A DNA stretch of 27,284 bases. Origin: a virus. The first letter of the stretch is position 1. Every line of letters begins with the position of its first letter. Positions 1 to 25,055 of this stretch are shown here, in pieces. The notes under the pieces are model-generated. The model was not told where the DNA came from. It saw nothing but the letters and a program-made list of their open reading frames with translations, and searched no databases. The DNA is taken from positions 1 to 27,284 of the IMG/VR virus record IMGVR_UViG_3300030339_000205; one strand, written 5' to 3'. The position numbers were made by a program, and so were the translations under genes.

Positions 1-3000
1 CAAATATTCCTGATTGTCCATGTTTCCATAGATTAGTAGTTGTATTTGCTCTATATTTCTCAATAGTATTAAGAATCTTTGCTACTATAGCCAATCTTTG
101 TTGTTCTGTTAATGATACTAAAGGTGTTACCCCACCACGAGCTGGTCGTAAGGGAGGAGCTGTTTCAGCACTACTAAAAATATCTAATAGTTCATTTAAT
201 GTATTTAAATTAGGTCTAATATAAAGAGAATCTTGAAATTTATCACTTCCGGATACTCCTACAGTTCCTAAATTACCATTTGGATTTAGTATAACATCTA
301 AATTAACCAAGAAAGCAAAATATGTTCTATCTATAAAATTCAACAATTTAGTAAATTTACTATCTAAAGAATCAGAATAAAGAGCTTGTGGATTAATAGC
401 TATGTAACTACTTTCTACCACTTTACCTTCAACTGTTGCAGTGTTTTTAGTAATCTCGAAATATTGATTATCATACACTACATTATTAGCACTACCTGAA
501 AAACTATAATTAAAAGTAGGATTTTTATAAAGTTCTCTACCTTGTAAAGTTAAGTAATATTCTTGAGTATTAAGTAATGCTTGTGCAGAATTCACACATG
601 CTATAGCAAAATTCCAACCATCTCTTGCAATAGAGTCTGCTAATGCTTTGTTTTCTTCTGGAGTCACATATGTAGTAACTGGCCCAACTATAAAATTTAC
701 TTTTAAATAAGGTTTAGTACTAGTAGTTTGCATATTGGAAATTACATCACCATTTATATATGATGCTATAAATTCATCTTGTCCATAAGTAATTGTATTT
801 AAAGTATCAGCTGATCTATAAAAATATAGTTTACTATTATCAGAGAGTGAGAGAAATGAATTTTGTTTATCATATACTATTAGTAAATCTCCAGCTTCTG
901 GTGCAAAATTCCACACATTGTCATAACCATGTGTATAAGCTGTGCCTAGATACATAGGATGTTTTGCACTTGCTGGTCCATCTGCAAACAGAATAGGGGT
1001 AGTTAAAGTTACTGTACGAGGTACAGCAAGAGTATTACCCTGAACTATTGAACCAGTTACTACTGGGAGAGTGTCTTCTAGATTCTTTTCATAAAATAAT
1101 GAGAGATAATCACCAGTTGTTAATGGATTCTCTCTGATAGAATTAATATAAATATTTCCCAAACCATCTGCAGAATCAATAGATTTTGAGATCATTGAGG
1201 TTACTTTACAAGTTTCTCTAGCAAAGGTAAAGAAGGTATTACTTATGTTCTCAGAGAATGCAGGCATCCAAGAGAAACGAGTTACCCAGTTATTTAATTG
1301 TTCATTATAACATAAACTCCATACCTTATCAGGTTCATTAAAAGTTTGGTCATAAAAAGTAAACATTAAATCATTCTTAAAAATGTTATAATGAGTCACT
1401 ACATTACGTAATCCAATCATTGGAGTTTTATCGTAGATAGTAAATGTAATATTATCATTCAAGAATTTTTGTACTCTAAAATCAGAGACAACCTCAAACT
1501 TTTTACCATCAGTTCTCCATATTTTTTTAGCAACTGTATCAACCCCATATATATAATTCTTTGAGACTTTAATAGAATCAGACCATGAACTACCAATACC
1601 ATGCGAAACCATCATAGGTTTTTCTGGTAATACACCAGCATTACGTAAGAAGATGTTTTCTCCTTCTGATTGTCCAGCCATGGTTCTCTCATTAATAGGT
1701 AGAATACCAACACCACTTTCAAATACTACAATTAAGTTACCAAACCATGAGATTATTTTAACAATAGCTCCAAACTCAATAGTGTAATCTCTATAATTTG
1801 TGCCTTCAAAAATTCTAAATCCGTTCTTAAATGCATCAGTAACATGTGTTTGTGAATACATTATTCTATTAGTAAAATCATTTTTAATAGCTGGGATATC
1901 AGAGACAGAGAAATAATACTTATCTGAGGTAGTTGAATTGTACCCAACATTCATTGCTCCGGAATCAGCTATTTTTGCTGTTCCTGCAAGACTTCTACTA
2001 TATAGAGGATGAAATGATCTAGGTCTACCTGCTAAAGCATATTCTGAGATGTAAGTAGGATCTATACATCTGAATGCATAGTTAATATTACTACAAAATT
2101 TGAATGTAGCCCAATAACCTAATCTAGCAGCATTCACATCTCCTCTGTTGATCTTAGTTAATCCTTCTTGATTTAACTCTAAAGTATCAGTGTCTTTAAC
2201 ACCATATCCTTTAAAATTCTCTAAAGTATTAACGTCTACTATAATATCATTTACAGGAGCTTCTGGATCTTGAAAGTTTCTCAACATTCTAATAGATACT
2301 TGATTTATAAAACAATCTCCTCTATATACATCAATGCTTCTATATGAAGATTGTTTGTTTGAATCAATATCAAATCTATCCCAGTCATATCTATCTGTAA
2401 TAGCCATAAATGGAGAGTTGTCATTATATCTTACTTTAAAATAAGAATTAACATTATTAACAGAATATCCAAGAGTTCTAATATTATAGAATCCACCAGA
2501 AGTTTTTAATGTACCTAATGATCCAACAAATGGAGTAAAAATTCCTCTTAATAATTCATTAGATAATTTAGAATAATAGATTCCATCTATAGTAACTGGT
2601 TGGTCTACTAATTCTAATTCTTTCTTTAAAAATGCTGAAAATTTCCAAGCTTCTTCTGCTTGTCCAGCTCTTGATGAATAATAAGAAGTGTCCAGACTAA
2701 TTGAATTCACATCTTCTGGGACTAATATTAATTTAGATTTTTCAGTAGAAGATACTGGATTTTCCTCATAATCAGTTATTGTAAAATGAGTAGATAAATC
2801 ATCTAATTCTTCTAAGGTTTTATTTACAGGTACATCTAAGGCAGAAAAATATCTTTGAAATCCACCTTTAGAAGTTTTAAATTTAGTACTAGTTAATGTA
2901 AAATCTGATCCACTAAACATTTGAGATAAATATTCTGAATTTAATAAAGCATCTGGTACAAGTAAAGCACCACCAGGATTTAAATTCTCTATACTAGCTC

Positions 3001-4801
3001 CCATTAAAATACTTTCATTAACAAAGGAAAAGAAACTCTCTCCTTTTAAAGGTATTCTATAGTAAGTAGTGTCTTTCATAGCAGCATTAATACTTGTATA
3101 AGCAGTGTTTGCATACCCAATTGAATACTTAGGTCTATAAATATGTATACCCTGAATAGTATGTACAACTTTCTTTAAGTCATTACTATATTCAGGTAAC
3201 AAAGGTAATCCGGACATTTTGTCATGACCTATAGCCATGGCTTGTGAGAGTATTGTAGGAATTCTTTTTTGTCTAACAATAAAAAATCCTTTTGTATATT
3301 TTTTTAATTCTTCTTGTACGTTAACAGGTACTACTACTTTAATAGTAATAGGTTTTAATTCTGCATTAGTAATTTGTGAAGTAATAGAAGCTCCTCCTAT
3401 TTTCACAACTCCTTTAGTATTTTCTAATTTATATTTAGATCCTACTAATAAATTATCCTCTTCTTCAATATAAACTCTATTTCCTTTAGCATCAAACAGA
3501 GCTTTATCAGAGTAAAAGTTTTCGTATGGGCTGGCAGATGAAATAGATGTGGTAGTATTATTACTAAAATCTCTCCCCCTAATATTATAGGGATCTGATA
3601 AAGAATAATCCTTCATAATATATACTATAGCAAATCTATACATTTCCTCATCCCAATAACCTGTGTATGAGTAAACATTATTACTATCAAAATAAGCAAA
3701 TTTACCCTCTGTTAAAGGTGTGTACTCTGGAGTTAGAACTCCTACATTTACAGATTGTTCTGGGAATGGAAGTATGCGTAATGATAGATCTTTTAGTTCT
3801 CTATATGGTATAGTAGTCCTATGTATATTTGAGAGAAATAACATATTCTGAGCTTGCGCCAGAGTTTTATTTCTATCAATTATATTATATTGCACATTAA
3901 TACTTTCCTTAGTTATAGGTGAAGTTGCTTCAAATCCTGTGATTTTTAAATCAATTGCTTGACTTTTAATAGTGAACTTAGTATCTATTTTAAAGTACTT
4001 AGATATCTCTTTCTCAGAGTAATCTGAAGTACTTACTGAATAGTATATATTTAGGAAATCATAATTACTATCTAGATTTGTTAATCTAAATGTTAATGCT
4101 TTCCCACTATTCTCATTGCCCATACCACCTCTAATAGATTTAGGATCATTAATATTACCTACATGACAACTAATTATACCACTCTCTGTAATTATATCTG
4201 TCTCATTTCCATCAGCATCTACTAATCTAAAATAGAAGACATAATTACCCACATTTAATTTACCATCATTATCTAATCCTAAAAATTCAAGTTTAGGTAT
4301 TCTATTAATAGTCTTGTATAATCTAGTTTGATTATCAATCTTATCATCATCATAGATATTTGTATCTTTATTTCCTTCTCTATCAACTATATAAAAACGT
4401 CTTCCTTCTGTCACACTAAACCTAGAGTTAATTAATCTAGGAGGAGTGTGGTTATCTGAGAGAATTAGATTAACAGTCCCATCATATGAGGGTTGAATTT
4501 CAATCTCTACTGGGTAATTTATAGAGAAATCCAATTTAGTAGTGGAGAAATCCATAAGTTCTCCAGGAATTTTATCAGAAATGATATTTGCATTCCCAGA
4601 GTATCTTATATTTTGAAAAGGTTTAAACACATAGGAAAGATCCCCTTCGATTAAGTTCTTATCTAAAAGAATATTAAATTCAAACTTAAACTCTGCTGGA
4701 AGACTAAAAGTTAATCTACTCGTTAAGTCCGATAATAAAGTGGTGTACGTATTCGGATCTATTTCAGGAAGATCTACTCCTGTGTAATAAAGTTTTATCA
4801 T
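1..4801 (-). CDS. giant tail protein, crAss-like (3' end beyond window)
   Basis: An open frame of 1600 codons starts with ATG at 4801 (MIKLYYTGVDLPEID) and is still open at the left edge, so the C-terminus is missing. It lies 13 bases after the stop of the 1401-aa tail gene and is probably cotranscribed with it. The protein is beta-rich, with many short Gly/Asn/Asp turns and few charged helices. A stretch around residues 980-1090 (for example VVFESGVGILPINERT, then IYGVDTVAKKIWRTDGK) has the repeating strand-turn pattern seen in beta-propeller or tail-nozzle proteins. Position and size fit one of the large tail proteins (muzzle, stabilisation or tail-tip) that crAss-like phages encode after their ring proteins. 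The precise role is inferred; no catalytic motif was seen. I checked most of the frame for stops and found none. Confidence 0.75.
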   Translation of the reverse strand, partial: MIKLYYTGVDLPEIDPNTYTTLLSDLTSRLTFSLPAEFKFEFNILLDKNLIEGDLSYVFKPFQNIRYSGNANIISDKIPGELMDFSTTKLDFSINYPVEIEIQPSYDGTVNLILSDNHTPPRLINSRFSVTEGRRFYIVDREGNKDTNIYDDDKIDNQTRLYKTINRIPKLEFLGLDNDGKLNVGNYVFYFRLVDADGNETDIITESGIISCHVGNINDPKSIRGGMGNENSGKALTFRLTNLDSNYDFLNIYYSVSTSDYSEKEISKYFKIDTKFTIKSQAIDLKITGFEATSPITKESINVQYNIIDRNKTLAQAQNMLFLSNIHRTTIPYRELKDLSLRILPFPEQSVNVGVLTPEYTPLTEGKFAYFDSNNVYSYTGYWDEEMYRFAIVYIMKDYSLSDPYNIRGRDFSNNTTTSISSASPYENFYSDKALFDAKGNRVYIEEEDNLLVGSKYKLENTKGVVKIGGASITSQITNAELKPITIKVVVPVNVQEELKKYTKGFFIVRQKRIPTILSQAMAIGHDKMSGLPLLPEYSNDLKKVVHTIQGIHIYRPKYSIGYANTAYTSINAAMKDTTYYRIPLKGESFFSFVNESILMGASIENLNPGGALLVPDALLNSEYLSQMFSGSDFTLTSTKFKTSKGGFQRYFSALDVPVNKTLEELDDLSTHFTITDYEENPVSSTEKSKLILVPEDVNSISLDTSYYSSRAGQAEEAWKFSAFLKKELELVDQPVTIDGIYYSKLSNELLRGIFTPFVGSLGTLKTSGGFYNIRTLGYSVNNVNSYFKVRYNDNSPFMAITDRYDWDRFDIDSNKQSSYRSIDVYRGDCFINQVSIRMLRNFQDPEAPVNDIIVDVNTLENFKGYGVKDTDTLELNQEGLTKINRGDVNAARLGYWATFKFCSNINYAFRCIDPTYISEYALAGRPRSFHPLYSRSLAGTAKIADSGAMNVGYNSTTSDKYYFSVSDIPAIKNDFTNRIMYSQTHVTDAFKNGFRIFEGTNYRDYTIEFGAIVKIISWFGNLIVVFESGVGILPINERTMAGQSEGENIFLRNAGVLPEKPMMVSHGIGSSWSDSIKVSKNYIYGVDTVAKKIWRTDGKKFEVVSDFRVQKFLNDNITFTIYDKTPMIGLRNVVTHYNIFKNDLMFTFYDQTFNEPDKVWSLCYNEQLNNWVTRFSWMPAFSENISNTFFTFARETCKVTSMISKSIDSADGLGNIYINSIRENPLTTGDYLSLFYEKNLEDTLPVVTGSIVQGNTLAVPRTVTLTTPILFADGPASAKHPMYLGTAYTHGYDNVWNFAPEAGDLLIVYDKQNSFLSLSDNSKLYFYRSADTLNTITYGQDEFIASYINGDVISNMQTTSTKPYLKVNFIVGPVTTYVTPEENKALADSIARDGWNFAIACVNSAQALLNTQEYYLTLQGRELYKNPTFNYSFSGSANNVVYDNQYFEITKNTATVEGKVVESSYIAINPQALYSDSLDSKFTKLLNFIDRTYFAFLVNLDVILNPNGNLGTVGVSGSDKFQDSLYIRPNLNTLNELLDIFSSAETAPPLRPARGGVTPLVSLTEQQRLAIVAKILNTIEKYRANTTTNLWKHGQSGIF

Positions 4802-4814
4802 ATTTTATTTTTAA

Positions 4815-7800
4815 TTAAAATTTTCTAATTGCTCTAACTCGTCTCTCATTGTTTTTAAGAACGGATGCATTATTAGGAGATCTATTAAAGTTAAACATAA
4901 CAGCATGATCATTACTGGTATTTCCAGTTGCTTCTGTTGATGTCCAGTAATCTTGTCCTAAGCTTATACCTATTCCTTTATTTACCATACCTGATACTTG
5001 TATTTGATTCATTTCAAGTTGACTTGGCCAAAACCAATCAGTGTAACCATCTGCAGAATAATCTAAGACAGTTGCTACTGCATATGGTGCTGCACAACAA
5101 TTTGAACTTATTAAATTAGTATTTGCAAGTCCAGTTCCTATAGCAGTTCCTGAGGCACCTGTTGTGTAATTATCACCACAAGTACATCCAGAATTCCTAG
5201 CCCAAAATACACCTGAGCTACAATCTTCTTTTGCCACAATAAGACCATGTTTACCTGTACCATCCACATAGAAGATTATTCCTCCTCCAAATGCTTCACC
5301 TACAGTATAGGTTCTATTATTAATTATCTCTGAGATACTCGGCTGTTCTACCATGTATTTATCAATACCATAAGTATTAATACTTTGCATGATTCTACTA
5401 GCTAATGTAGTAGTGTTGATAACAGGAATTTTTAAATTAGAGTTATTAATATTATTACTTTGTGCACAATCTTTTAAAGAAAAATAAGGATCAGTTGTTT
5501 GTACTGTGTATATATCACCATTTAAAACTCCTTTAATTACAGGAGTAATACCTGTGTTTGATGTTAAATAACTTGTAGCTTCTAATCTAGTTTTACTACT
5601 AGTGAATAGAGTTTGTACAGAGCCTGGACTTCCAGCATTTAACTGAATTCTTGTATTTCTTAAAGGAACCGTACATGTTGGTAAACTTGTGTAATTCCAA
5701 GGAATATTTCTATCTGCTCCAGCAATCTTTGCAAAGTTATACAAAATTTGGAAAGTAGTGTTATTACTTTTCCAATTAGTGATGATATCATCAATAGATT
5801 TTAAAGTAAATGGTACTAGAGTTGAAGAACCAAAACATACTTGAGTTAAATATCTTAAAGATTTGTCTACAGTTGGAGTTATTGTACTGTAAATAATGTT
5901 GTTAGTATTAAGATCCAAATTATCAACACCTGCTGTAACATAGTCTAGATTGGATCCATCAGCATATTGTGCTAATATAGTCTCTCTATAATTCTGATAT
6001 ACATATAGATCATCTAAATATGTTGTCCCAGTCATTCCTATATATGGTCTAGTGACTAAATCAGAGAGCCATAACTGGTTATATTTATTTAATGGAATAG
6101 CTGGATCAGTGACAATTAGGTCCACATAAATTGGAGTATTAGTTTTATATACTTGGTATATAGTCTGTATTACATCATAATTAGATGAGGCAGATTTACA
6201 TCCTATAACAAATTGAGTTGGTGTAAATACCACTCCTGTTCTAGTTTCACTAACTTTAGTAGTATCTATTTGATCTACTACAACTCCAATATTATAAATA
6301 GCTGTGTAAATTAAATCAGTACTAGAATTATCAGATAACTCTAAAGATAAGTTAATGTCAATACCTAAAGCACAATAGAATGTAACTGTTTTAGGGACAA
6401 CTGATCCAGTTGGTGGTACAATAATAGAGAAACTTCTAGTATTATCATCTCCTCCAACTAATTTGAAATTAGTGTATTCTGATAAAGTACCAAATGAATT
6501 AGCATTAAATCTTTTGGATTTAATAGTTTGAGCATTTATCCATGTAAAATATTTAAAGTTTTTATTTCTAGCAAAATCTCTATTGTAAGCATAAAATAAA
6601 GATGGAGCAATAGTTAATCTTTGTGATGATAAAGTAATGTTAGATAGAGTAACTGTGTCTAAAATATCAGTTGTAGTTAATGCCGCTTTAACTGTAGCAG
6701 AAGTACTTGCTGTATTATCAGCACCACCTTTAGACCAGATAAAACTTGTGGTAATCTCAGGAAAGTTATTATAAGTAAAATCTTTATCAAATGTATTTGT
6801 CTGAAAATTAACTAAACTTCCTTTTAATTGTATGCTCTTCTTAAATAAACGATTGTCTACTACTCCAAATAATAATGGTGCTCCAGTAGTTTTACTTGTA
6901 GGTTGTAATGCAATGGTGCCAGTTTGTGATGGTATAGTTATATTACAATTACTTAGAATTTTAAATTTGAAATCTTTTGGTGAACCTCCTGTACTCAGAG
7001 GAGTTGAAAGGTATTCATTACCAGCTGGAAATAAATTAGGACTTAAAGCAACGCTTATATTTGTAATGCCTAATTTCATAGCAGCCTCAGAGAAATTATG
7101 GTGACCTATAGTAGTGATGTTAGTATCTGATATTAAATAAAAATGTCCATCATAAGCATTTCTATAATAAGAATCTACATAAGACCAATTAGTTCTTAGT
7201 AAATCATTTGAGGGAGTTTTATATAATTCATTAAATACAGGTCCCCCATATAATCTATATACATCAGCTGGATCTCCAGATACTGGTATATAGTTAGTTT
7301 CATTTGTAGTAAACACTGCAGTATTCGTTAAAGTTAGAGCACCTAAACCACTATCTGCTAACTGTGTTCCTAAGTAATTTAAATCATAAACTCCATTGTA
7401 TAAAAGACCTTGTACAATATCAATAGTACCAAAGTTCTTTACATTAGTATTTACAAATTTAGGGATAGGAGAAGTATATAGCAATTGAAAAATATTATAG
7501 TCTACTGAAGGTGTTCCTTCTTTACCAAATATTCTAACCAAATAGCAATGATCTTTTCTAAGAATAGATGTGATTGATTTTCTATTACCTGAGGCAATTA
7601 TTTTTTGAGCAGACACAGATGTTTCTATTCCTGAGGCAGGATATCCTCCTTGTGTACTTCCATCAAAAGTTCTAGTAGCAGGTGCACTAGATAACTGTAG
7701 AACTGTAGTACATTCTCCCTCAACAATTGGGACATCAAGTTTTAATGTGCTTATATTAGACCAGAAATCATAGAACTCAATATTTGTGTTAGCAATACCT

Positions 7801-9020
7801 ACTTGTCCTTTGTATAGAAAATTATATTTTATAGTCATACTATTTCCATCAGCTGCTAAACTATACGCAAAGTGATTGTGTGCATCTACTCCTAAGGGTA
7901 AGGCACTAATCTCATATGTTTTAGTAGTTATAAAGTCAGTTAATTCTCTATTGAACTGATCTATAGGAGTACAAGTAACTGTTAATACAGTACCAGCTAT
8001 AAAAGAAACTGCTGTGTTTGGTACATCTTCTTTAGTTATAATAACTTCCATAGAACCATTCTGATAAGCTTCATAATCAAAATATTTATCATTAATTACA
8101 GTTCCCTCAGAACTAGTAGTTCTTATTTTAATAGTTTTTACTTTAATTGCTGAATTTTCTATAATAGATGCTTTCTCAAAAATGATTTTGGCTTTAAGTA
8201 CATTACCAGTATTATCACCAGCAAGAGTAAAATCAAAAGCCTCTAAAGTACATGGTGTCATTATTAAAATAATCACTGCTTTTGCATCATCTTTATAGAC
8301 TTTATACACGCCATTTACGCCAGTTAAACCTGGAGAAGGAGTGTAGTCTACATCGGAGTATTGGCTTGTAAAATTAGGTGCTAAACTCAAGGGAATAGGT
8401 GTTAAATTTCCATCTATATCCATGATGTAATAGTTGAAGGTAAAATAACCATTTCCTCTACTTTTACCATCCACAATTGTTGGTGTATAGTTATTCACAA
8501 ATTTTGAGAGTATCTCTTGTGCTTGTGACCAGGTAGTACCATTAAGAGTTAAAGCAATTCTAAATTTATCTCCACTTGTAATATAGGAAGTTAATAAATT
8601 CATGCCGTGATTAATACTAACAGATTGTTTTAAAGCAGCAGAATCTCCCCATAGATCTGTGATTGTTTTAGTTGTTAGATTATCTCCATCACTAACTACA
8701 ACATATCTTTGTGGTGAGGGTAAACTTCCTACTCTAGTTTCTTTTGTAAAAGGATTATGTGCAACAATATACATAATACCATTATACTCTTTAATACCTA
8801 AGGGTATAAACCCATGAGGCAAAGCATCTGGATCTTCTGTGTCAGCACCTGTTACTCTTACTTGAACATTACCTAATTCAGTTTGTAGATTAAATTCATC
8901 TCCATTATAAGTAATAATAGTTCCATTTAAACAGTCTGTTAAAACATCCTTTGGTGTAGACAGAGGGTTTAAATCCATATTTAATCCTTTTCCAAATGAA
9001 TTCTGGGTTATTTTTTTCAT
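4815..9020 (-). CDS. tail nozzle/muzzle-like protein with C-terminal DUF1566/Lcl_C-like domain
   Basis: This 1401-aa protein begins with a segment (about residues 9-110: GKGLNMDLNPLSTPKDV, then a conserved-looking NG...Y.GDEF..Q.ELGNV block and HGFIPLGIKEYNGIMYIV) that resembles the N-terminal region of T7 gp12-type nozzle and crAss-like muzzle proteins. A long beta-rich middle follows. Residues about 1236-1401 look like a DUF1566/Lcl_C domain of the C-type-lectin-like fold: FGGGIIFYVDGTGKHGLI, then GYTDWFWPS, YWTSTE and the terminal RRVRAIRKF. Five cysteines (about 1267, 1279, 1281, 1308, 1309) sit in this domain. The start overlaps the preceding stop by one base (TAATG), implying coupled translation. 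I infer a tail tube or tip protein that also carries a glycan- or protein-binding end. The tail role is fairly secure from context; muzzle specifically is an inference. Confidence 0.8.
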   Translation of the reverse strand: MKKITQNSFGKGLNMDLNPLSTPKDVLTDCLNGTIITYNGDEFNLQTELGNVQVRVTGADTEDPDALPHGFIPLGIKEYNGIMYIVAHNPFTKETRVGSLPSPQRYVVVSDGDNLTTKTITDLWGDSAALKQSVSINHGMNLLTSYITSGDKFRIALTLNGTTWSQAQEILSKFVNNYTPTIVDGKSRGNGYFTFNYYIMDIDGNLTPIPLSLAPNFTSQYSDVDYTPSPGLTGVNGVYKVYKDDAKAVIILIMTPCTLEAFDFTLAGDNTGNVLKAKIIFEKASIIENSAIKVKTIKIRTTSSEGTVINDKYFDYEAYQNGSMEVIITKEDVPNTAVSFIAGTVLTVTCTPIDQFNRELTDFITTKTYEISALPLGVDAHNHFAYSLAADGNSMTIKYNFLYKGQVGIANTNIEFYDFWSNISTLKLDVPIVEGECTTVLQLSSAPATRTFDGSTQGGYPASGIETSVSAQKIIASGNRKSITSILRKDHCYLVRIFGKEGTPSVDYNIFQLLYTSPIPKFVNTNVKNFGTIDIVQGLLYNGVYDLNYLGTQLADSGLGALTLTNTAVFTTNETNYIPVSGDPADVYRLYGGPVFNELYKTPSNDLLRTNWSYVDSYYRNAYDGHFYLISDTNITTIGHHNFSEAAMKLGITNISVALSPNLFPAGNEYLSTPLSTGGSPKDFKFKILSNCNITIPSQTGTIALQPTSKTTGAPLLFGVVDNRLFKKSIQLKGSLVNFQTNTFDKDFTYNNFPEITTSFIWSKGGADNTASTSATVKAALTTTDILDTVTLSNITLSSQRLTIAPSLFYAYNRDFARNKNFKYFTWINAQTIKSKRFNANSFGTLSEYTNFKLVGGDDNTRSFSIIVPPTGSVVPKTVTFYCALGIDINLSLELSDNSSTDLIYTAIYNIGVVVDQIDTTKVSETRTGVVFTPTQFVIGCKSASSNYDVIQTIYQVYKTNTPIYVDLIVTDPAIPLNKYNQLWLSDLVTRPYIGMTGTTYLDDLYVYQNYRETILAQYADGSNLDYVTAGVDNLDLNTNNIIYSTITPTVDKSLRYLTQVCFGSSTLVPFTLKSIDDIITNWKSNNTTFQILYNFAKIAGADRNIPWNYTSLPTCTVPLRNTRIQLNAGSPGSVQTLFTSSKTRLEATSYLTSNTGITPVIKGVLNGDIYTVQTTDPYFSLKDCAQSNNINNSNLKIPVINTTTLASRIMQSINTYGIDKYMVEQPSISEIINNRTYTVGEAFGGGIIFYVDGTGKHGLIVAKEDCSSGVFWARNSGCTCGDNYTTGASGTAIGTGLANTNLISSNCCAAPYAVATVLDYSADGYTDWFWPSQLEMNQIQVSGMVNKGIGISLGQDYWTSTEATGNTSNDHAVMFNFNRSPNNASVLKNNERRVRAIRKF

Positions 9021-10713: not shown

Positions 10714-11391
10714 TTAAGGTTTAATTGAATTATCACTTGGTTGATGCAAATATACGACTTGTCTGTAATTTCTCAAAAACTTTTCGGTTATTCTTTTCTC
10801 TATATCAGCAGAAAAGAAAGAAAAATAGTCACCACTATCTGGACAACATGCAAATTCTGAGAGTTGTCTTGGATCTTTAGGAATAAGAACAGCTGTAATT
10901 TCTTTCATGATAGGTGTATTAAAAACATACACATCATATTTTCCATTTCTATTAGCAGCCATATCTACCCAAACATATGGTTTATGTGCACGTCTAGTAC
11001 GAAATTTATTGTAAATGAATGCACTATCTGTATATATTTTAAAAGGATTCTGTCTATTAGCAGAACCTATGTATTCTATTGCCTCTTCTCCAAAATCTAA
11101 GATTACTTGAGGTATCTCAAAATGCAGATAATTGGTTCCAGGCTTTACCACTCCACATGAAACAGGACAACGTTCTATTGGAAAACATTCTAAAGTAAGA
11201 CATGGAATTGGAACTAATAAATCCTTTCTAGGTATTAATCCTTTTACCATATACTCTTTAATTATAGCAAGTCTCTCTGCAATTATAGCATCCTCTATAT
11301 GTTCATGTGTCATTGGAACATTGGCATTTGTGCCTTTCAATCCTGAGACTATATTGTTATAGATAGCAGATGTTAATTGTTCTAGTGTCAT
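10714..11391 (-). CDS. ring/connector-like structural protein, 225 aa
   Basis: A 225-aa protein with an N-terminal helical part (TLEQLTSAIYNNIVSGL, then HIEDAIIAERLAIIKEYMVKGLIPRKDLL, residues 28-59) and a beta-rich rest. Residues 64-79 carry four cysteines (C64, C69, C75, C79), and a CC pair occurs later (EFACCPDSGDY). The helix-then-sheet layout and the location among other connector-like proteins suit a crAss-like ring protein. The gene starts just downstream of a strong terminator and shows no promoter of its own in the 70-base gap, so it probably depends on read-through, which would keep its level low, as expected for a 12-copy ring component. The ring assignment is inferred. Confidence 0.65.
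   Translation of the reverse strand: MTLEQLTSAIYNNIVSGLKGTNANVPMTHEHIEDAIIAERLAIIKEYMVKGLIPRKDLLVPIPCLTLECFPIERCPVSCGVVKPGTNYLHFEIPQVILDFGEEAIEYIGSANRQNPFKIYTDSAFIYNKFRTRRAHKPYVWVDMAANRNGKYDVYVFNTPIMKEITAVLIPKDPRQLSEFACCPDSGDYFSFFSADIEKRITEKFLRNYRQVVYLHQPSDNSIKP
10746..10777 (-). promoter_or_regulatory. candidate internal Bacteroidetes-type promoter
   Basis: On the minus strand TTTG (10777-10774), 19 bases, then TATATTTG (10754-10747) followed by C. This fits the Bacteroidetes sigma-ABfr consensus (TTTG, about 19-21 bases, TAnnTTTG). It lies in the last codons of the 225-aa gene, about 37 bases before the ATG of the 229-aa adaptor gene, so it could drive the tail genes separately. Confidence 0.45.
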
Positions 11392-14236: not shown

Positions 14237-15661
14237 TTACTGTTCCATCATGATGAATGAACGGTAAGGATTGTAAACTCCAATACCTGCATAACCCATG
14301 TGAATAATTTTACTACCTGCAACAGCAGTATTTACATCACCTGAGGTAACACCATCCATACCCCCAACACCTTTTAGTACGCCACGAATAAATTCGCCAC
14401 CTTTTAAGGTAAACATTTGAGCAGCAGGAACACCTGAAGTTTTATCTGATGTTAAGTCAATACATAATCCGTAACCTTTATCAGGGTACTCATAAGTTAA
14501 ACTTCTATCAACGTGGAATGTTAATTGGTTACCACCGAAGTTATAAGTATCAAAGGTTGCCCCTACTTCTACCATACCACCGGCTTTCTTCGAGTAGAAG
14601 AATACACCATTAGTTTTCCAGTCTTTAAGATAATCTCTAAGAGTTCTTTGGATTTGTGTCCACATTTTTTCGTTACATACAAATACCCATTGGTTACCAG
14701 TTGGTTCTTTGGCACGTTCACGCATTGTTTCAATCATCGTATCAAACGCGTTGATAGTTAATTTAGCGTAAGCATATTTATTTGCATATCTTTCGATTTG
14801 TGCGATAAGTCCATCTCCCATAGGGATAGCACGTCCTGTTTTTGGATCTGTAATGGTACATTTACCATTCTTATCATAGTTAGATTTCCCAAATAACATA
14901 CCTTGGTTTCTAGCCAACATGAAAGATTCAAGACATTCCTGTTCTTTTTTCTTCATCTTGTAAACGACTTCTTTGAAGTTACCGTTATTAGAAGCATCTG
15001 GTTGTCCAATTGAAATAAATACATCTTCTAGAGCAGCGAACTGACTTGAGAAAGATACATCATTTCTATGAAGAGAAATATGATTTCTATGTCTTTCAAT
15101 ATTTGATTGGTACTTAGTGTAACCTTCTTCTGATAGTTCAGGGTGGTAGTTAGAAATCCAACGTGTAGTTGAACCGACTTGAGTTCCTGTAGTATCCAAA
15201 ATAGTTGAGTAATCTGCGTCAATTAATTGTACAATTAATTCCCAGTAATTATCTGCTTTTCTAAGAGGTGAACTCTTAACAAAACATTGCTGACGAGTTC
15301 CTTCGATACGGAATGTATCATATTTCTCGTAATATCTTTCTTTGAATGCCATGATGATATCAGAACCATTCAATCCTGTTCCCGTAGGTACAGCTGCAAA
15401 TTCTACACGTTTGATGAAATTAACATCGATCTCCCATTCAAATACCATTGCATCAATGTTCTGGAATTTAGAAGCTTTGTTTTCATTGTAGTAGATGTTC
15501 ATCAGCGATTCTGTTAAGAAAGACGCTGTTAGATTTGGATACATTTTAGAGACGATACCTAGTCTATGAGGGCGAAGTCCAAGGAATTTTCCAAAGTCTT
15601 CATAAGTCTTAGTTTGGCCCATTGAGGGTTGCTGACTAACAAAATTAGTTACTAAAGCCAT
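14237..15661 (-). CDS. major capsid protein, crAss-like (HK97 fold)
   Basis: The 474-aa product has the length and appearance of crAss-like phage major capsid proteins: an N-terminal arm (ALVTNFVSQQPSMGQTKTYEDFGKFLGLRPH), a long mixed alpha/beta core with a helix near FVCNEKMWTQIQRTLRDYLKDW, and a conserved-looking C-terminus (SKIIHMGYAGIGVYNPYRSFIMMEQ). It would build the icosahedral shell. Context supports this strongly: an acidic scaffold-like gene lies 20 bases upstream and a textbook terminator directly follows. Arg codon CGT is common here, while AGA dominates the neighbouring tail genes, consistent with selection for high expression. No protease gene or obvious long N-terminal delta domain is present, matching use of a separate scaffold. 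The fold is inferred from family knowledge. Confidence 0.87.
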   Translation of the reverse strand: MALVTNFVSQQPSMGQTKTYEDFGKFLGLRPHRLGIVSKMYPNLTASFLTESLMNIYYNENKASKFQNIDAMVFEWEIDVNFIKRVEFAAVPTGTGLNGSDIIMAFKERYYEKYDTFRIEGTRQQCFVKSSPLRKADNYWELIVQLIDADYSTILDTTGTQVGSTTRWISNYHPELSEEGYTKYQSNIERHRNHISLHRNDVSFSSQFAALEDVFISIGQPDASNNGNFKEVVYKMKKKEQECLESFMLARNQGMLFGKSNYDKNGKCTITDPKTGRAIPMGDGLIAQIERYANKYAYAKLTINAFDTMIETMRERAKEPTGNQWVFVCNEKMWTQIQRTLRDYLKDWKTNGVFFYSKKAGGMVEVGATFDTYNFGGNQLTFHVDRSLTYEYPDKGYGLCIDLTSDKTSGVPAAQMFTLKGGEFIRGVLKGVGGMDGVTSGDVNTAVAGSKIIHMGYAGIGVYNPYRSFIMMEQ

Positions 15662-16907: not shown

Positions 16908-18422
16908 TTATACCCAGTAACCGTCAGGAGCAGCAGCACAAACTAAAGCTTGTGTATTAGCAAGTACCCATGTAACAAGTGGTCTTATTGCTATCTGAAT
17001 ATAGGTACCTGCCTCACATAAAACTGGAGTCTGTGGTTTCCAAGAAATAGGACCTAATGAAGTTCCAATTGGTGTAGTAATAGGTACATTAATAAAACCA
17101 ATGATAGCTCTTCTTACCCCTTTAACTGGAGTAGTCTGTGTAGTAATAGCTTCAGCTGTAGCAGGAGAAATATTAGTACAACCATAATTAAGTTCTACAA
17201 CACATGGAATAGGACCTGCATTTGTTCCCGCAACTATTCTTGAGGTCATAAAGAAATCCATACCAGTCAACATAATACCTTTAGCTGGTGAGATAGGTGC
17301 TGCAATTACTGGAGCTGGAACTAAATAACTAAACATAATCCAAGCTGTATCAGCAGTTAATGATGGCCCTGTGGCATTAGAAGTTGTTTGATATCCTCCT
17401 AAACCTGCAACACCAGATGTTCCTAGAGCTACTGCAGAAACAGTAGTTGCTGTGGCTGGAATAGCAACGTTGGTAATACCAGCTGTTAATGTAGAACCAG
17501 TTGATACTCCATTAGAAGGTAAAATCTGACAGTGTTCTTGCATTAAAGCCATTCTATGTGCAAACGGTAAAGCAGTTTCCATATCAGCAATTGATACACT
17601 AATTGAAGAAATATTTAATTTCTGTGCTGTCAGTGAATTAGCAGAACTCATATATAATCTTGCATATATAAATAATTGCTGCGATGCTGTTAAAGCCGGT
17701 GTACTATTATTTTTTAAATCATAAGAATATACCAAGACATCATTAATCCAAAATTCGCAACTATCATCATCCATGAAAATAATATAATGGTTTACTTTAG
17801 TAATATCAAAAGCAATCAATGCTAATTGTGTTGGATTTACTATTGAATTTACAAGTTCAACGTTGTTGTTCATAACCACACAAGATAAACCTGCTGTAGT
17901 ATATCTAAAAAATACTCCATCTGTTGCAGTAACATTTACTGTTCCAGCTGTTAATCCAGCTCCCCATTCTACTGTTGTGTTATTAAAAGAAGTGGTAGCT
18001 ATAGAAGCTCTTATTTCTACATAAGTCCCAAAAGCTGAGAATGTTTGGAATGTTTTCCAAGACTTTAAAATACACCCTTTAGTTGTGGCAACTGAACCAA
18101 CTGCATTTAGAGTTAAAAACCCACCAGCCTGTACTATTGTAGCTGTATCTAAGGGTGTTGCCCACTTACTTGTATTAATTACTGTACCAGAAAATATCTC
18201 ATTGAAAATCATATTATCTGTTCCTACTCTTACTCTAAAGTCACCAGACACATCTACTGGTAAAACTTCTCTTATACCAGTTATAATTCCTTCATCATGT
18301 CCTCCACCTAATGCTGCATATCCAGCTTTATTAGGATTAGTATTTAAAGCCACATTTAATTCATGATCAGCAGTTACATTTACTAAACCAGCTGTATCGG
18401 AACCTCCTTTTATTGTTATCAT
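16908..18422 (-). CDS. LamG-like virion protein, candidate head fibre (504 aa)
   Basis: The 504-aa protein has three parts. Residues 1-68 are a Gly-rich start (ITIKGGSDTAGLVNVTADHELNVALNTNP) typical of attachment segments in phage fibres. Residues about 70-285 look like a concanavalin/LamG-type beta sandwich (MIFNEIFSGTVINTSKWATP ... VNHYIIFMDDDSCEFWINDVLVYSYDL). Residues about 290-504 form another beta-rich, Ala/Thr/Pro-heavy region ending AAAPDGYWV. There is no enzyme signature, so carbohydrate or surface binding is the likely role. The gene follows a long fibre gene by 10 bases and precedes the scaffold-capsid unit, which fits a head fibre or other receptor-binding appendage; a tail fibre is also possible. 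Confidence 0.7.
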   Translation of the reverse strand: MITIKGGSDTAGLVNVTADHELNVALNTNPNKAGYAALGGGHDEGIITGIREVLPVDVSGDFRVRVGTDNMIFNEIFSGTVINTSKWATPLDTATIVQAGGFLTLNAVGSVATTKGCILKSWKTFQTFSAFGTYVEIRASIATTSFNNTTVEWGAGLTAGTVNVTATDGVFFRYTTAGLSCVVMNNNVELVNSIVNPTQLALIAFDITKVNHYIIFMDDDSCEFWINDVLVYSYDLKNNSTPALTASQQLFIYARLYMSSANSLTAQKLNISSISVSIADMETALPFAHRMALMQEHCQILPSNGVSTGSTLTAGITNVAIPATATTVSAVALGTSGVAGLGGYQTTSNATGPSLTADTAWIMFSYLVPAPVIAAPISPAKGIMLTGMDFFMTSRIVAGTNAGPIPCVVELNYGCTNISPATAEAITTQTTPVKGVRRAIIGFINVPITTPIGTSLGPISWKPQTPVLCEAGTYIQIAIRPLVTWVLANTQALVCAAAPDGYWV

Positions 18423-18432
18423 TTTATTTTTA

Positions 18433-21400
18433 TTAAATTGTTATTATATATTGTACTGTATGATTTCCACTGGCACCATTAGCACTGTTTGCTCTTATAT
18501 CAAATGAGACATTATCTATTATGTTTTCTATATTGAAAGTAACTCCTGTGACTGCAAATTCATCTAAACTTGTCTCTGGAGTAGCTATTGGAATAAAATT
18601 AATTCCTTTAATGGCAGATCCAACTATCGTAGAAGCAGTTACGGTAACTATAGTAAATTTATTTTCATTACCAAAGTCTAATACAGCTTCTCCAGATAAA
18701 CCTGCTACTATTGTTATTCCTCCATATTCGAAAGCTCCAATATCAGGAAGGCCTACTCTAGTCTTTCCTAAAAAATCAGTAGTAACTCCAACATCTATAC
18801 CAGCATTAATAGCTGGAGATGTACTTTGTAAATTATAATCAAAACCAGCTTCATTAACAAAGAGAGGATCTGTATTTATTAAGTTTCCTATAATAGTACA
18901 ACCATCAATTGTAGCTCCTACATAAAGTTCTCCATTTCCACCATATGCTATATTATTTTGAATAAATACAGAAGCATATGTATAACCAACTTGATATATT
19001 TGTATTACATATTGTAAGTGATCTTTGAATATATTATTAGTTATTCTAACATTATTCATAGAACCCCACATCATAACATGTCCAGCATAATGGAGTTGAT
19101 TATTATCATGTAAAGTATTGTTTACAAAGTCTAGATGATGAGTAGTTTCGTCATTACCTGAGTAAATTTGTAAAGCAAATCCGCTGACAATGTGGTGAAA
19201 TACACAATTTTTTATTGTAAAATAAGAACACCCATTAACATATATTCCATGATCATGGTCTGTATAAGCAACAGCCGATGGACAGCCTTCTTCTGGATGT
19301 AATCTTCCAATGTTGTCAAAAGTACATCTCTCAAAAGTAGTATAAGAAGCTTGGTAAAAATAAGTAGCTCCCAATCCAAAATCTGTGGTAGTACAAACTC
19401 TTCCTAAATCATGTAACCATAAATCTCTAAAATTTAAATGATGATGTGCTTCACCTGTAGCTATCGCAGTTCCACCTATATTTCTTATTTCAAAACCTTC
19501 TATATTTAAATAATCTGCCCAAATACTTAATCCAACTTGAGTATAATTACTTTGTCCATCAAAAACAGCATAACCATAATTTCTAGCTTTATAAGTAATA
19601 TAATTACCAGCAGTTCCTGATGTAGTTAATACTGCAAAATCATCTACCCCAGCTGTATAAAGACCATCTTCAAAAATTACTGTATCTCCTGGAACAACTC
19701 TAGTATTTGCATAGGCCAAACTAGCCCATGGTGCACTAACAGTTCCTGCTCCTGCATCTACTCCTGTTGGAGATACATAATAAATAGGAGTTGTAGTAGG
19801 AGTTGTAGTTGTGCTTCCTAAAGCAGTTTTAATATTAGCCCAAGTCCATTTATATTTTGTGCCGGCTTTTTCGATTACAAATAAATCTGTATCAGCTGGT
19901 GTACTATTTGCTGTATAAGCTGCAATTCCACCTATATATCCGGCAGTTGCATGATTTCCCCATCCATATGCTGAGTTCCAATTAGCTGAGTTATCAGTTA
20001 ATGATGTACCCCAAACACTTCCTGCAGAAACTGCTATTCCTACTCCAGGATAAGTCATTCCTCCTCCTGAATATTGTGGAACATTTAATACCCCTGTGGT
20101 AGATGAATAAGTAGCCGCTCCAGAGGATCCTGTAGTAGTTAAACTTATAGCACCTCTTGCTAAGGCATTTGTAAATCCGACTGTAGAGGAAGGTGCAAAA
20201 TCTGTTGAGGCACTATTAGCAGCAGTACCAAAGGTTCTTTGTGCTAATACGTTGGTTCCTATAACTAATCCTAAAGAAGTTCTTGCTGTAGCTGCATTTA
20301 AATTTGTAGTTCCACCATCCCAGTTATTTCTTTCTGAGTAAGCTGTATTCCAATTAGTAGAGTTATCTGTTAATATAGAGTATACTCCTGCGGAGGCTCC
20401 TCTTAACATTATACCTTGTGCTGTAAAATCACCATCTTGTACTACATCTGCATGCGAAGTTTGAGACGTTAAATATCCCATTCCTGTCCAAGGAGTACCA
20501 GTAACATAAACTGTTGTATCAAGACCAAATGTTCCAGCTGCAGTCATCTTTATTAAAGGAGATCCTGTAGTCCAAGTTAATCCAGATAATGAAGTTAAAG
20601 AAGCAGAACTTGCTTGCTTTGCACTATCATTACCGTTTAATTTTTGTATAGCTTGTAATATAGTGTCAGTTGCTGCAACTACACCACTTCCAGAAACATA
20701 ACCTGTGATTAATTTACCTGTTACAGTTGCTGCTGAAATTACAGTAGCACCTTGAGTTCCAGTAACATCTCCCAAAAGTGAGCCTGAAAAATTAGTTGAG
20801 GTACCCGAAGAAGTTATATAACCTAATCCAGTCCATGGTGTTCCAGTTACGTATCCCATACTTGTCCAAGGAGTCCCTGTTACATAACCCACTAAAGCAT
20901 GATTGCCCCATCCGAAAGCTGTATTCCAGTTCGCAGAATTATTAGTTATAGAAGTTCCCCAAGCTGAACCTGTAGACAATGGAATACCAACACCTGGCCA
21001 AACCATTCCTGATCCACCTGAATATTGAGGAATGTTTAAAACACCAGTAGCAGGAGTGTATGTTGCTGCACCAGTTGTTCCAGTAGTTGTTAAAGATATA
21101 GCATTTCTAGCTAAAGTATCTGTATAACTAACTGTTGAAGATGGAGCCGCTCCTACTTCTGAGTATGTATAAGTAGGTTTAACGCTATTCTTTGCCCAAG
21201 CATATACGTCTGAGGCTGTACGACTGTCTGTTAAACGAGAATCATTTCCTTGAGTAACAGTGCCGGCAATAGTTCCAAAGTTTTTATTAAAAGCAGTATT
21301 CTTACTAAATACTGGTTCTTTTCCCCCTAGTGCTGTAGCTATTGTAGTGGCAAAGTTAGGATCATTTCCTAAAGCTACAGCTAATTCGTTTAATGTGTCT

Positions 21401-22110
21401 AATGTAGTAGGGGAAGAATTTACAAGTGCAGAAATTGCAGCAGAAATATTAGCTGGTGTAGCTTTACTGTCAAGAGCAGCTTGTAGAGAAGTTATCTCGG
21501 AGATTCCATAAATAGGTTTACTTATGTTTTTAGCCCAAGAATATACATCAGATGCGGGCCGGCTATCTGATAAACGAACGTCACTTGTAACCACATAATT
21601 TGCATCATTGGTAAAAGCACTTACATTAGTAGGTTTCCCAGAGACTTCACTCCAAGAAGGTACATATCCTATTGGTCTGTATAAACCAGCATGACTCCCC
21701 CATCCAAATGCAGTGTTCCAATTAGTTTTATTTTGAGTAGTTATTCCATAAGCTGGAGATGCTACAAAAATAGGATCTGTTTCTGCAGGTGGAGGTGGTA
21801 AATTATCTATTTTAGTTTCTAAAGCAGTATCACCTAGTGTTATAGTAGCATTTATGTTAGTGGTCAGAGTATTTAATATCTCTCTTATACCATTCTGACT
21901 AATAGTATCATTAGTAGATGTTCCAAGTACTTGTAAAACATTTAAAGAGGCTGGATTATATGGGTTTTGTAAAGGAACCAGAGCAATCTCTTTAAGAGTA
22001 AAATCTATTTGTAAATGAGCAGGGCCCCCTATAAGTATAGGGGGATGAAACACAGCAGTACTAGAAGTTGGGGTGATTGCTGCACCATTAAAGATTATAG
22101 GTTCGTCCAT
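18433..22110 (-). CDS. modular tail fibre/spike with beta-helix domain (1225 aa)
   Basis: Fibre-type protein of 1225 aa. Residues 110-730 carry motifs frequent in Bacteroidetes phage fibres: NWNTAFGWGSHA near 130, 394 and 710; SDSRPASDVYSWAK at 181 and a close copy at 295; YVTGTPWTGxG at about 409, 421 and 535. An 83-residue module is present twice (323-405 and 640-722). Residues about 775-1130 look like a right-handed parallel beta-helix (YYVSPTGVDAGAGTVSAPW..., FEDGLYTAG, then many N/H/G-rich strand turns such as LNIEGFEIRNIGGTAI and TIKNCVFHHI), a fold used by phage spikes that bind or cut polysaccharides. Residues 1131-1225 form a small terminal domain. A depolymerase activity is possible but no catalytic residues can be assigned. 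The start overlaps a 55-aa gene by 16 bases. Confidence 0.87.
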   Translation of the reverse strand: MDEPIIFNGAAITPTSSTAVFHPPILIGGPAHLQIDFTLKEIALVPLQNPYNPASLNVLQVLGTSTNDTISQNGIREILNTLTTNINATITLGDTALETKIDNLPPPPAETDPIFVASPAYGITTQNKTNWNTAFGWGSHAGLYRPIGYVPSWSEVSGKPTNVSAFTNDANYVVTSDVRLSDSRPASDVYSWAKNISKPIYGISEITSLQAALDSKATPANISAAISALVNSSPTTLDTLNELAVALGNDPNFATTIATALGGKEPVFSKNTAFNKNFGTIAGTVTQGNDSRLTDSRTASDVYAWAKNSVKPTYTYSEVGAAPSSTVSYTDTLARNAISLTTTGTTGAATYTPATGVLNIPQYSGGSGMVWPGVGIPLSTGSAWGTSITNNSANWNTAFGWGNHALVGYVTGTPWTSMGYVTGTPWTGLGYITSSGTSTNFSGSLLGDVTGTQGATVISAATVTGKLITGYVSGSGVVAATDTILQAIQKLNGNDSAKQASSASLTSLSGLTWTTGSPLIKMTAAGTFGLDTTVYVTGTPWTGMGYLTSQTSHADVVQDGDFTAQGIMLRGASAGVYSILTDNSTNWNTAYSERNNWDGGTTNLNAATARTSLGLVIGTNVLAQRTFGTAANSASTDFAPSSTVGFTNALARGAISLTTTGSSGAATYSSTTGVLNVPQYSGGGMTYPGVGIAVSAGSVWGTSLTDNSANWNSAYGWGNHATAGYIGGIAAYTANSTPADTDLFVIEKAGTKYKWTWANIKTALGSTTTTPTTTPIYYVSPTGVDAGAGTVSAPWASLAYANTRVVPGDTVIFEDGLYTAGVDDFAVLTTSGTAGNYITYKARNYGYAVFDGQSNYTQVGLSIWADYLNIEGFEIRNIGGTAIATGEAHHHLNFRDLWLHDLGRVCTTTDFGLGATYFYQASYTTFERCTFDNIGRLHPEEGCPSAVAYTDHDHGIYVNGCSYFTIKNCVFHHIVSGFALQIYSGNDETTHHLDFVNNTLHDNNQLHYAGHVMMWGSMNNVRITNNIFKDHLQYVIQIYQVGYTYASVFIQNNIAYGGNGELYVGATIDGCTIIGNLINTDPLFVNEAGFDYNLQSTSPAINAGIDVGVTTDFLGKTRVGLPDIGAFEYGGITIVAGLSGEAVLDFGNENKFTIVTVTASTIVGSAIKGINFIPIATPETSLDEFAVTGVTFNIENIIDNVSFDIRANSANGASGNHTVQYIITI
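19945..21144 (-). repeat. duplicated 83-residue fibre module (copies at 20896-21144 and 19945-20193)
   Basis: The two coding copies start PSSTVSYTDTLARNAISLTT and PSSTVGFTNALARGAISLTT, share VLN(I/V)PQYSGG, PGVGI, SxWGTS and end NWN(T/S)A(F/Y)GWGNHA. They are separated by about 234 residues of related fibre repeats. Divergence of the copies shows the duplication is not recent. Confidence 0.85.
22025..22044 (-). other. GC-rich hairpin near the 5' end of the fibre gene
   Basis: Perfect 8-bp inverted repeat (CCCCCTAT and ATAGGGGG) with a 4-base loop, within codons 23-29 of the 1225-aa gene (peptide HPPILIGGP). No U tract follows on either strand, so it is not a terminator. It could affect translation early in the gene. 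Confidence 0.45.
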
Positions 22111-22827: not shown

Positions 22828-25055
22828 CCTATATTTTTAATTTCGTCATTACCTTTGTTAGTATCTGCTAGTTGTAGAACTTCAGCTTGTATTTGTTTTT
22901 CTTTTAGAGAGATCTCTCTATCCTTAAAGTCTTTATCGTCTTTCAACTTAGTAGCACCTTGTTCTGTTTTCATCTTAAGTTCATTCTGTTTTAACTCAAG
23001 ATCAGCTTGATTATTTTTAGCAACTTGATCAGACAATTGTTTAACTTGTGTTTGTGCTTCTTTAATTTGTTGTTCATATTGAGCAACTTGTTGTTGAAGA
23101 TTCTGTAGAACTCCTTGAGATTCTTTTTGTTTACGTAGTGAATTAAGTCCACTCTCTTTAAATTCTGTTAGACTCTCTGTTGTGATTGTCTCAAACATTA
23201 ATTCAGGATCTACTAATCCACCCTCCATTAATTTCATTGTAAGTTGTTTTATTAACTCTATATCTTTAGTGATTTCCGTAGAATCTCCTATATGAATATC
23301 ATGATCTGTAAATGAAAGATGTTCTGGGAGTACTGTAAATATTCTTGTTAATCTATTACCTAGAATTAATGATCCCTTAAATTCTTTCTTAAGAGAAGAT
23401 TTACATAAATCTAACATATCAGTTAACATCTCTTTTACAACGCCATCTAATGTATTGAAATATTGTTTAGTAATGACAGCAGAGTTTCTCATGCCAACTT
23501 GTACATTTGTTACAGCATCTCTCTGTTCTATATCTCCTAATTTTTCTCTGAAGACTCCTGTGATTGCTGAGCAAATATCTTCTGTTTGTGTTATAGCTAA
23601 TTGTATAGCTTGTATTGCTTGTCCCGAGACTGTATCATCAAATCCAGCAAAAGTTGTATTCATAGGAACTCCTCTACCTTCTTGAGCAGAGTTAAATAAA
23701 GCTTTACCAGCTTTTTTATAAGCACCATGTTTAAGTAAACGTTCCTCCGGAGTAGTTCCTAAAAAGGTAGGTACTAAAGCCACATCAATCCAATCTCCTT
23801 TTACACCAGAGTTTGCTATTAGTGTGTCGCGGTACCAATGTAATATATCATACTTATCTTGTAGATTAGCAGTAGCTAATACCATGGAGAAAGGTTTACC
23901 AGTTCTAGATATCATCTGTACTCCATTAATAGAGAGATTACAACTATAAGGATCTTCCATACTTCTACATACAGTATCATCCTTACCCATTCCTAGATAA
24001 ATTTCGCTACCAATTCTAGCACCTTTATATCTATCCATACGATAGAATGTTTTATTTCCAACCTCTACCTTATTATTTTCTAACCACTCTACATAATATA
24101 CTGGATACTTATTGTATCCCATATAATTATCATTATAATAAGGATATGTACCTGGAATAGTGGTCTCAACATTACTAACTATTCCATTAGATTCTGCTCT
24201 TATATAAAATACGTTGTGTGAGAAATTATCAAGATTTACACCTTGTAATGCTGCTAAATCATCCTTAGACATGTCATCTCCGAACTCATTAATAATCTCT
24301 TCTTTAGACATATATTTTACATACACTATTCTTCTAGACTTATTAATATAATTTGAGTTAGGATTTGTCTCTGGAAATACATCAAATGGGTTTAATACAT
24401 CTGTGGTTGGAACAGGAGATCCTTTCTTAACTCTAGGTTTATAATAACATTGACCGCCAATAAGTATATCTTTAAAGAGAAGTTCTCTTTTTAAATTTAG
24501 ATTTATCTCCCTAGATTGCATGAAAAATTCTAGCATATTCTGTGCTGCAATTTCAAACTCAGAGATAAAATCTCTCTTTGTAATTTCTTTAAGTTTAGCT
24601 AATTCTTCTTCATTAGCTTTATCAACTGCTTCTTTACCTTCTCCAAAAATAGATTCAATATTATCAGACAGTTGTATTTTAATTCTATTTAATTCTTCCG
24701 TGTAAATAGCTTTTTGAGCTTCTCTCTCAATTTTGGAAAGAGTTTCAGAATCTTTACAGGTAATCTTTGGTTTTAATTTAGTCTGTAATAACTCTCCTAT
24801 CAAAGCATCTACGTGTCTACGTACTAAAGGAATGAATTCTATCGCAGTGGAACTTCCAATCCCAAAGTTTTCTTCAAGATGACGGAATTGATCTTTATCT
24901 CTTATACAATTATAGTAATTATATGCTTTACGTAAATAGTCTTTATCGTGTACTAATTCTGTAATAGCTTTATCCACACAACCTTTTAAATAGTCTTCTG
25001 AGGATTTCTCTTTTTCTGTATAAGATTCTGAATCATTATAGTTAAATATATTCAT
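22824..25055 (-). CDS. portal protein
   Basis: The 743-aa product matches the size and layout of crAss-like and related podovirus portals. It begins with an acidic, helical segment, contains IEFIPLVRRHVDALIGELLQTKLKPKITC (about residues 72-100, the typical portal start of the clip/wing region), a long charged helix (about 140-175), the motif LLFKDILIGGQCYYKPRVKKGSPVPTTDVLNPFDVFPETN (about 194-233), and later helices with TQTEDICSAITGVFREKLGD. The last 100 residues are Gln/Lys/Glu-rich coiled coil (QNLQQQVAQYEQQIKEAQTQVKQL), forming the barrel or an extended C-terminal part. A dodecamer of it would form the DNA-packaging vertex. The start overlaps the endolysin stop by one base. Terminase is not in the window. 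Confidence 0.9.
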   Translation of the reverse strand: MNIFNYNDSESYTEKEKSSEDYLKGCVDKAITELVHDKDYLRKAYNYYNCIRDKDQFRHLEENFGIGSSTAIEFIPLVRRHVDALIGELLQTKLKPKITCKDSETLSKIEREAQKAIYTEELNRIKIQLSDNIESIFGEGKEAVDKANEEELAKLKEITKRDFISEFEIAAQNMLEFFMQSREINLNLKRELLFKDILIGGQCYYKPRVKKGSPVPTTDVLNPFDVFPETNPNSNYINKSRRIVYVKYMSKEEIINEFGDDMSKDDLAALQGVNLDNFSHNVFYIRAESNGIVSNVETTIPGTYPYYNDNYMGYNKYPVYYVEWLENNKVEVGNKTFYRMDRYKGARIGSEIYLGMGKDDTVCRSMEDPYSCNLSINGVQMISRTGKPFSMVLATANLQDKYDILHWYRDTLIANSGVKGDWIDVALVPTFLGTTPEERLLKHGAYKKAGKALFNSAQEGRGVPMNTTFAGFDDTVSGQAIQAIQLAITQTEDICSAITGVFREKLGDIEQRDAVTNVQVGMRNSAVITKQYFNTLDGVVKEMLTDMLDLCKSSLKKEFKGSLILGNRLTRIFTVLPEHLSFTDHDIHIGDSTEITKDIELIKQLTMKLMEGGLVDPELMFETITTESLTEFKESGLNSLRKQKESQGVLQNLQQQVAQYEQQIKEAQTQVKQLSDQVAKNNQADLELKQNELKMKTEQGATKLKDDKDFKDREISLKEKQIQAEVLQLADTNKGNDEIKNIG

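Follow-up and report, generated by a model that had tools for sequence, protein, structure and literature searches.

Crassviruses are the most abundant phages of the human gut, and their host recognition is poorly known. The closest described counterpart of the locus studied here is the crassvirus muzzle, a hexameric assembly with a probable role in contacting the cell and in gating ejection; its published structure suggested these functions and showed no dedicated binding domain (PMC10172136). In phiCrAss001 the muzzle protein gp44 (PF25731/PF25729; 7qok, 7qol, 8ckb) is a single chain of 1371 residues without a lectin, and its IG1 domain (residues 163-292) sits between propeller blades 2 and 3; variation in muzzle length has been placed in the crass and IG2 domains (PMC10172136). 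The ring-joining and propeller domains of the crassvirus muzzle have been described as similar to those of the T7 gp12-type nozzle (PMC10172136). Diversity-generating retroelements (DGRs) also occur in crassviruses (PMC7290462, PMC11054128, PMC12386605), where they aim at tail-fibre or RBP genes; in epsilon and zeta crAss-like phages the targeted tail proteins end in a C-type-lectin-fold domain and are encoded by tail-fibre/RBP genes of their own within a DGR cassette that includes a reverse transcriptase (PMC11054128, PMC12386605). A third point of comparison is the C-terminal domain of Lcl (8q4e), a collagen-like adhesin of Legionella pneumophila, which binds glycosaminoglycans as a trimer (PMC11162425).

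Here we analysed a 27,284-base IMG/VR virus record (the window, to which all window coordinates refer). As with gp44, the muzzle gene of this phage follows a ring-protein gene and a Pfam muzzle domain is present, carried by the protein P2, while the N-terminal module of the adjoining protein P1 is weakly similar to the first 55 residues of gp44. Unlike gp44, the window has two chains, with an extension of about 1,300 residues at the break that ends in an Lcl_C domain, and the break lies elsewhere than the domains to which muzzle length variation was ascribed in the published account. P1 itself has no detected nozzle match, its link to the T7-type protein running via the crassvirus muzzle only. 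The P1 end resembles the DGR targets in having a C-type-lectin fold, predicted here from a model, as the last domain of a crassvirus tail protein, but P1 is probably a muzzle part and neither reverse transcriptase nor template was found for it. With the Legionella domain it has fold and C-terminal position in common, yet it ends a phage tail protein and its ligand is putative. Our main reading, to which we give a probability of roughly 0.6, is that two neighbouring genes here encode one crassvirus muzzle, and that P1 forms its N-terminal chain and carries the lectin on an exchangeable extension.

A muzzle divided between two adjacent genes

On sequence grounds we assign the window phage to the crassviruses, because its capsid protein matches PF23898, portal-like and ring-like proteins are encoded and the crassvirus muzzle profile is present. 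The nearest relatives of the capsid protein in the annotated collection are two unannotated human-faecal phage records (53-56% identity). The features of the window that bear on the muzzle are the following:

2..4801, minus strand: P2, second chain, muzzle body (PF25731, E = 1.3e-25), truncated by the contig end
4815..9020, minus strand: P1, first chain of the split muzzle, 1401 residues, assigned from the open reading frame, homology and gene order
4818..5315, minus strand: P1 residues 1236-1401, Lcl_C/DUF1566 domain with a modelled C-type-lectin fold (profiles, PDB sequence search, structure model)
5316..7340, minus strand: P1 residues 561-1235, extension, with no relative detected beyond the lineage of the window and the related locus L001
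7341..8705, minus strand: P1 residues 106-560, body recognisably common to L009, L011 and L012 (model pLDDT 52)
8706..9020, minus strand: P1 residues 1-105, muzzle N-terminal module (N-module), the most conserved part of P1
10021..10710, minus strand: ring protein 1-like (PF24228, E = 5.5e-4, below cut-off), gene-order context
10714..11391, minus strand: ring protein 2-like (PF25702, E = 0.011, weak), gene-order context
14237..15661, minus strand: crassvirus major capsid protein (PF23898, E = 2.3e-15), identifying the phage group
18433..22110, minus strand: tail-fibre-like protein, 1225 residues, a separate gene and alternative receptor binder

Elsewhere in the window, a glycosyl hydrolase 108 protein of endolysin type, which includes a peptidoglycan-binding domain, is encoded inside the structural cluster (25055-25582), and a GIY-YIG/NUMOD-type homing endonuclease gene lies close to the contig end (26457-27146). 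The gene at 16908-18422 (504 residues) is nearly unrelated to its L001 counterpart at 457-2064 (535 residues; pN 0.51), although the capsid gene beside it is nearly identical between the two (pN 0.02); judged from this comparison, its product is another exchanged, probably surface-exposed protein, without a family match.

The earlier note had taken the 1401-residue protein as a whole for a nozzle- or muzzle-type protein. A Pfam search matches only Lcl_C in P1 and the PF25731 match belongs to the neighbouring gene at 2-4801, so that the designation fails for a whole muzzle and survives for a split one, of which P1 is the N-terminal chain with a long extension. We likewise rejected P1 as a complete muzzle or a muzzle paralogue, since its muzzle homology by Pfam and blastp is limited to the first ~105 residues. 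The complete P2 of L001 comprises 1777 residues. A direct PDB search with P2 gave no match, and the structure model of P1 residues 1-560 was too poor (pLDDT 52) for a fold search.

Querying with the N-terminal 225 residues of P1 produced 32 related loci; four loci end too early to be scored as split or single-chain. The N-module and the muzzle body lie in adjacent genes at 27 of the 30 resolvable loci (window included) and in one gene at three. The P1 of L004, used as a query in viral contigs, gave no match. The single-chain muzzles (L022, L027 and L034; 1647-2242 residues) match PF25731 and begin with the N-module, which aligns to their N-termini at 44-47% identity (blastp, E = 1e-19 or better). 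In the best of these alignments P1 residues 1-104 match L022 residues 4-98 (46% identity, E = 5e-25), and P2 residues 39-535 align to L022 residues 98-579, resuming where the P1 match stops; L027 and L034 give the same division. As P1 and P2 align to successive parts of L022, the two window genes divide one muzzle. On a muzzle-core tree the group is separate from the single-chain Steigviridae and Suoliviridae, and the single chains (L022 4966-9909, L027 3374-8320, L034 10001-16729) nest in three separate places. The split or single state needs four changes on this tree, for example one split and three re-fusions, its long branches leaving the exact history unsure; the nesting suggests either repeated re-fusion or repeated splitting.

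Two other causes of the split were considered and rejected. The window has no Rfam match, which argues against a self-splicing intron of the listed types, and purifying selection acts at the protein level on the extension, an open frame. A reassigned stop codon is likewise rejected, as the standard code is read in both the window and L001, and P1 and P2, separated by 13 nt in the window and 9 nt in L001, lie in different frames. Many of the 32 loci use TAG or TGA as sense codons: many among L005, L010 and L014-L037 read through one of these codons in their muzzle genes, and the standard code applies to these genes in the window, L001, L004, L009, L011, L012 and L013.

The connection to the solved phiCrAss001 muzzle was examined with profile comparisons. 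The N-module matches the muzzle N-termini of Steigviridae and Suoliviridae (hhalign P = 9e-5), and against whole muzzles the exact N-terminus was matched at P = 0.004, compared with 0.2-0.8 for reversed and shuffled controls. A PDB hmmsearch with an N-module profile that included three Suoliviridae muzzle N-termini found residues 4-55 of the phiCrAss001 muzzle at E = 0.096, ranked under an unrelated tail-needle repeat. This weak similarity is suggestive, not proof, of homology between the N-module and the N-terminus of gp44. Because IG1 occupies residues 163-292 of gp44 and P2 starts just before that region, the break would by analogy probably fall between propeller blades 1 and 2.

As to assembly, we infer that the N-module of P1 begins the muzzle and that P2 supplies the rest; judging from the phiCrAss001 muzzle, which is hexameric, the two chains would probably co-assemble at the tail end. 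It is unlikely, in our judgement, that P1 is instead an independent tail component such as a spike or adaptor, with a borrowed muzzle N-module serving as its docking peg, which would leave P2 alone to form the muzzle with a substitute N-terminus. The 40-80 variable residues that precede the muzzle homology in P2 could replace the N-module, and the P1 extension is far larger than the N-module and unlike muzzle, but no second N-module is found in P2 at any split locus examined, P1 adjoins P2 in all 27 resolvable split loci, and three relatives fuse the N-module directly to P2 sequence, either without an extension or with an insert only. A docked P1 of this kind would likewise present the lectin close to the tail tip.

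The Lcl_C domain at the end of P1

Positions 4815-5315 encode the last 166 residues of P1 and the stop codon, position 5315 being the first base of residue 1236. The earlier note had read these residues as a DUF1566 match and thus as a lectin-like domain fused to the end of a tail-tip protein, and profile, PDB sequence and structure-model matches now bear this out, all four motifs that it quoted being found. Pfam Lcl_C (PF07603) matches residues 1266-1399 over profile positions 5-117 of 117, with an E-value of 9.8e-5 and a score of 23.1 bits, short of the curated 34.9-bit cut-off. The match to phrog_4245 (residues 1188-1401, E = 1.3e-12) also takes in residues 1188-1235 of the extension, and a PDB sequence search found chain 8q4e, the Legionella Lcl C-terminal domain (E = 2.2e-4). 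A structure model of the domain, built on 24 aligned homologues, is mostly above pLDDT 85 across residues 1236-1401. Its best structural match is again 8q4e, with a VIA-align Z of 16.4 (rmsd 2.5 Å, 126 residues aligned), a Foldseek E-value of 6.6e-9 and 29% identity in the structural alignment, followed by the Bacteroides fimbrial protein 4eps at Z 13.3; generic C-type lectins reach about Z 8, far under the value for 8q4e. Structure modelling of the C-terminal residues, the check that had been proposed, therefore assigns residues 1236-1401 to the Lcl_C/DUF1566 C-type-lectin fold, as predicted by the match of the model to 8q4e.

The core motifs GGGIIFY, DW..P, YW(S/T)S and R..R.F line up in an alignment with L001, a protein of one other phage and 21 homologues from bacteria. 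L001, which is 78% identical over P1, has the domain at the same place. Homologues with 28-42% identity are mostly C-terminal in secreted or lipoprotein-like proteins, largely from environmental Bacteroidota, a distribution that we count for the main reading. Another phage encodes a 253-residue protein (L074 4740-5501, on an 89.5-kb contig) in which a short unrelated N-terminus precedes an Lcl_C-type domain at the end, and the module therefore travels among phage proteins. In annotated phages, a tblastn search with the domain gave no match at 1e-5 and just two DUF1566 proteins, from Porphyromonas phages, at E = 5e-3.

Comparison of the window with L001 reveals very different rates along P1. 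The N-module is 98% identical, with a dN/dS of 0.017, and the body has values of about 0.1-0.17; within the domain, dN/dS is 0.11 in the first half and 0.41 in the last 86 codons. These 86 codons, which lie in the fastest-evolving stretch of the gene, have a pN of 0.268 against a window mean of 0.133, and none of 5000 random codon sets reaches 0.268. The fast C-terminus could be a ligand-facing surface and would also fit relaxed constraint.

Under the main reading, the extension of ~1,300 residues would hang off the muzzle and display the Lcl_C domain at its free C-terminus, where it would bind a surface ligand of a Bacteroidota host; a lectin-fold end on the first muzzle chain would thereby place a binding module beside the ejection gate. 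As a tail-fibre gene is also encoded, the chief receptor binder may be the separate tail-fibre-like protein (18433-22110) rather than the lectin. We regard it as quite improbable that the domain is mainly structural, trimerising or capping the P1 extension and leaving receptor recognition to the tail fibre. The Legionella Lcl domain is trimeric and its authors suggest that DUF1566 could promote trimer formation (PMC11162425), and a tail-fibre-like gene is indeed present; against this, change is fastest in the distal half of the domain and close to nil in the N-module, and the domain is limited to the window lineage and L033, and is therefore not needed for the muzzle.

The search for a diversity-generating retroelement

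DUF1566, Fib_succ_major and Big_2 are all domains of DGR targets, the first two common ones (PMC4159848), and the proposal in the earlier note that the P1 end is such a target was for this reason a sensible one. Its observation that the window holds neither a reverse transcriptase nor a template repeat was confirmed by an RVT_1 search and by an adenine-tolerant scan for a template of the P1 end, the matches in the window staying at the level of shuffled controls. RVT_1 was also absent from the L001 record (115.6 kb) and from the L002 and L003 records (one relative record being 67 kb). The 115.6-kb record yielded no near-identical, adenine-differing copy and no convincing template for the P1 end of L001, the best chance-like matches having 6-7 non-adenine mismatches in 60. 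As a positive control, the scan recovers template/variable repeat (TR/VR) pairs in all six relatives that bear a reverse transcriptase. There is no adenine-biased variation in the P1 domain: between window and L001, the two lineages compared, 63% of the differences in the domain involve adenine versus 66% in the rest of the extension. L001 and L003, contigs from separate datasets, are identical over the P1 gene including the domain, and the L002 contig, which stops short of the domain, shows a single difference to L001 in the P1 gene.

A reverse transcriptase is present in 6 of 31 wider relatives. Per 70 bases, their TR/VR pairs mismatch at 13-19 adenines and at 0-1 other positions; they lie within about 4 kb of the reverse transcriptase and none is in P1, four of the six records having been scanned at the reverse transcriptase and P1 regions only. 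Complete-looking DGRs are found in G030, G031, G021, G020, G016 and G023 (the large crassvirus records of L035, L036, L026, L025, L021 and L028), with apparently two variable repeats in each of G030 and G031. Even with DUF1566 and Fib_succ_major common among target domains and DGRs present in crassviruses, the lack of a reverse transcriptase in the 115.6-kb and 67-kb relative records and of a template in the 115.6-kb one, the absent adenine bias and the different aim of the relatives' DGRs make it extremely improbable that the P1 C-terminus is a variable repeat served by a reverse transcriptase in an unsequenced part of the genome.

Differing modules after the N-module

In most split loci the extension after the N-module measures ~870-1,680 residues, and the modules at this site differ. 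The first chain of L033 is 354 residues long, consisting of the N-module and then a Fib_succ_major/Lcl_C-like end, with the rest of the muzzle in the next gene; L034 has a Big_2 Ig-like insert at the break site and no split; and L022 has almost nothing between the N-module and the muzzle rest. L033 and L034 are 57% identical before the site and 70% after it, and since these flanks are similar and the modules differ, the module has been replaced between fairly close relatives. Lcl_C stands at the break site only in the window, L001/L003 and L033, and the L033 domain is distant from that of the window; acquisition was likely, though not provenly, independent in L033 and the window lineage. Read from these sequences, the break point appears to be a site of binding-module exchange.

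We extend this only tentatively, and short of favouring it, to a whole crassvirus clade, in which a two-chain muzzle would have its N-module in trans, the break would act as a socket for swapped binding modules of up to ~1,700 residues (Lcl_C, Fib_succ_major, Ig-like and uncharacterised domains) and the ejection gate would carry a host-recognition domain. If this were true, binding could directly trigger opening of the ejection gate. Within the open-access literature searched, the split muzzle is a so far undescribed form of the known crassvirus muzzle. An annotation of this large crassvirus group that relies solely on the muzzle profile overlooks the first chain, and a muzzle split with a lectin-fold or Ig-like module at one site provides a testable receptor-binding candidate.
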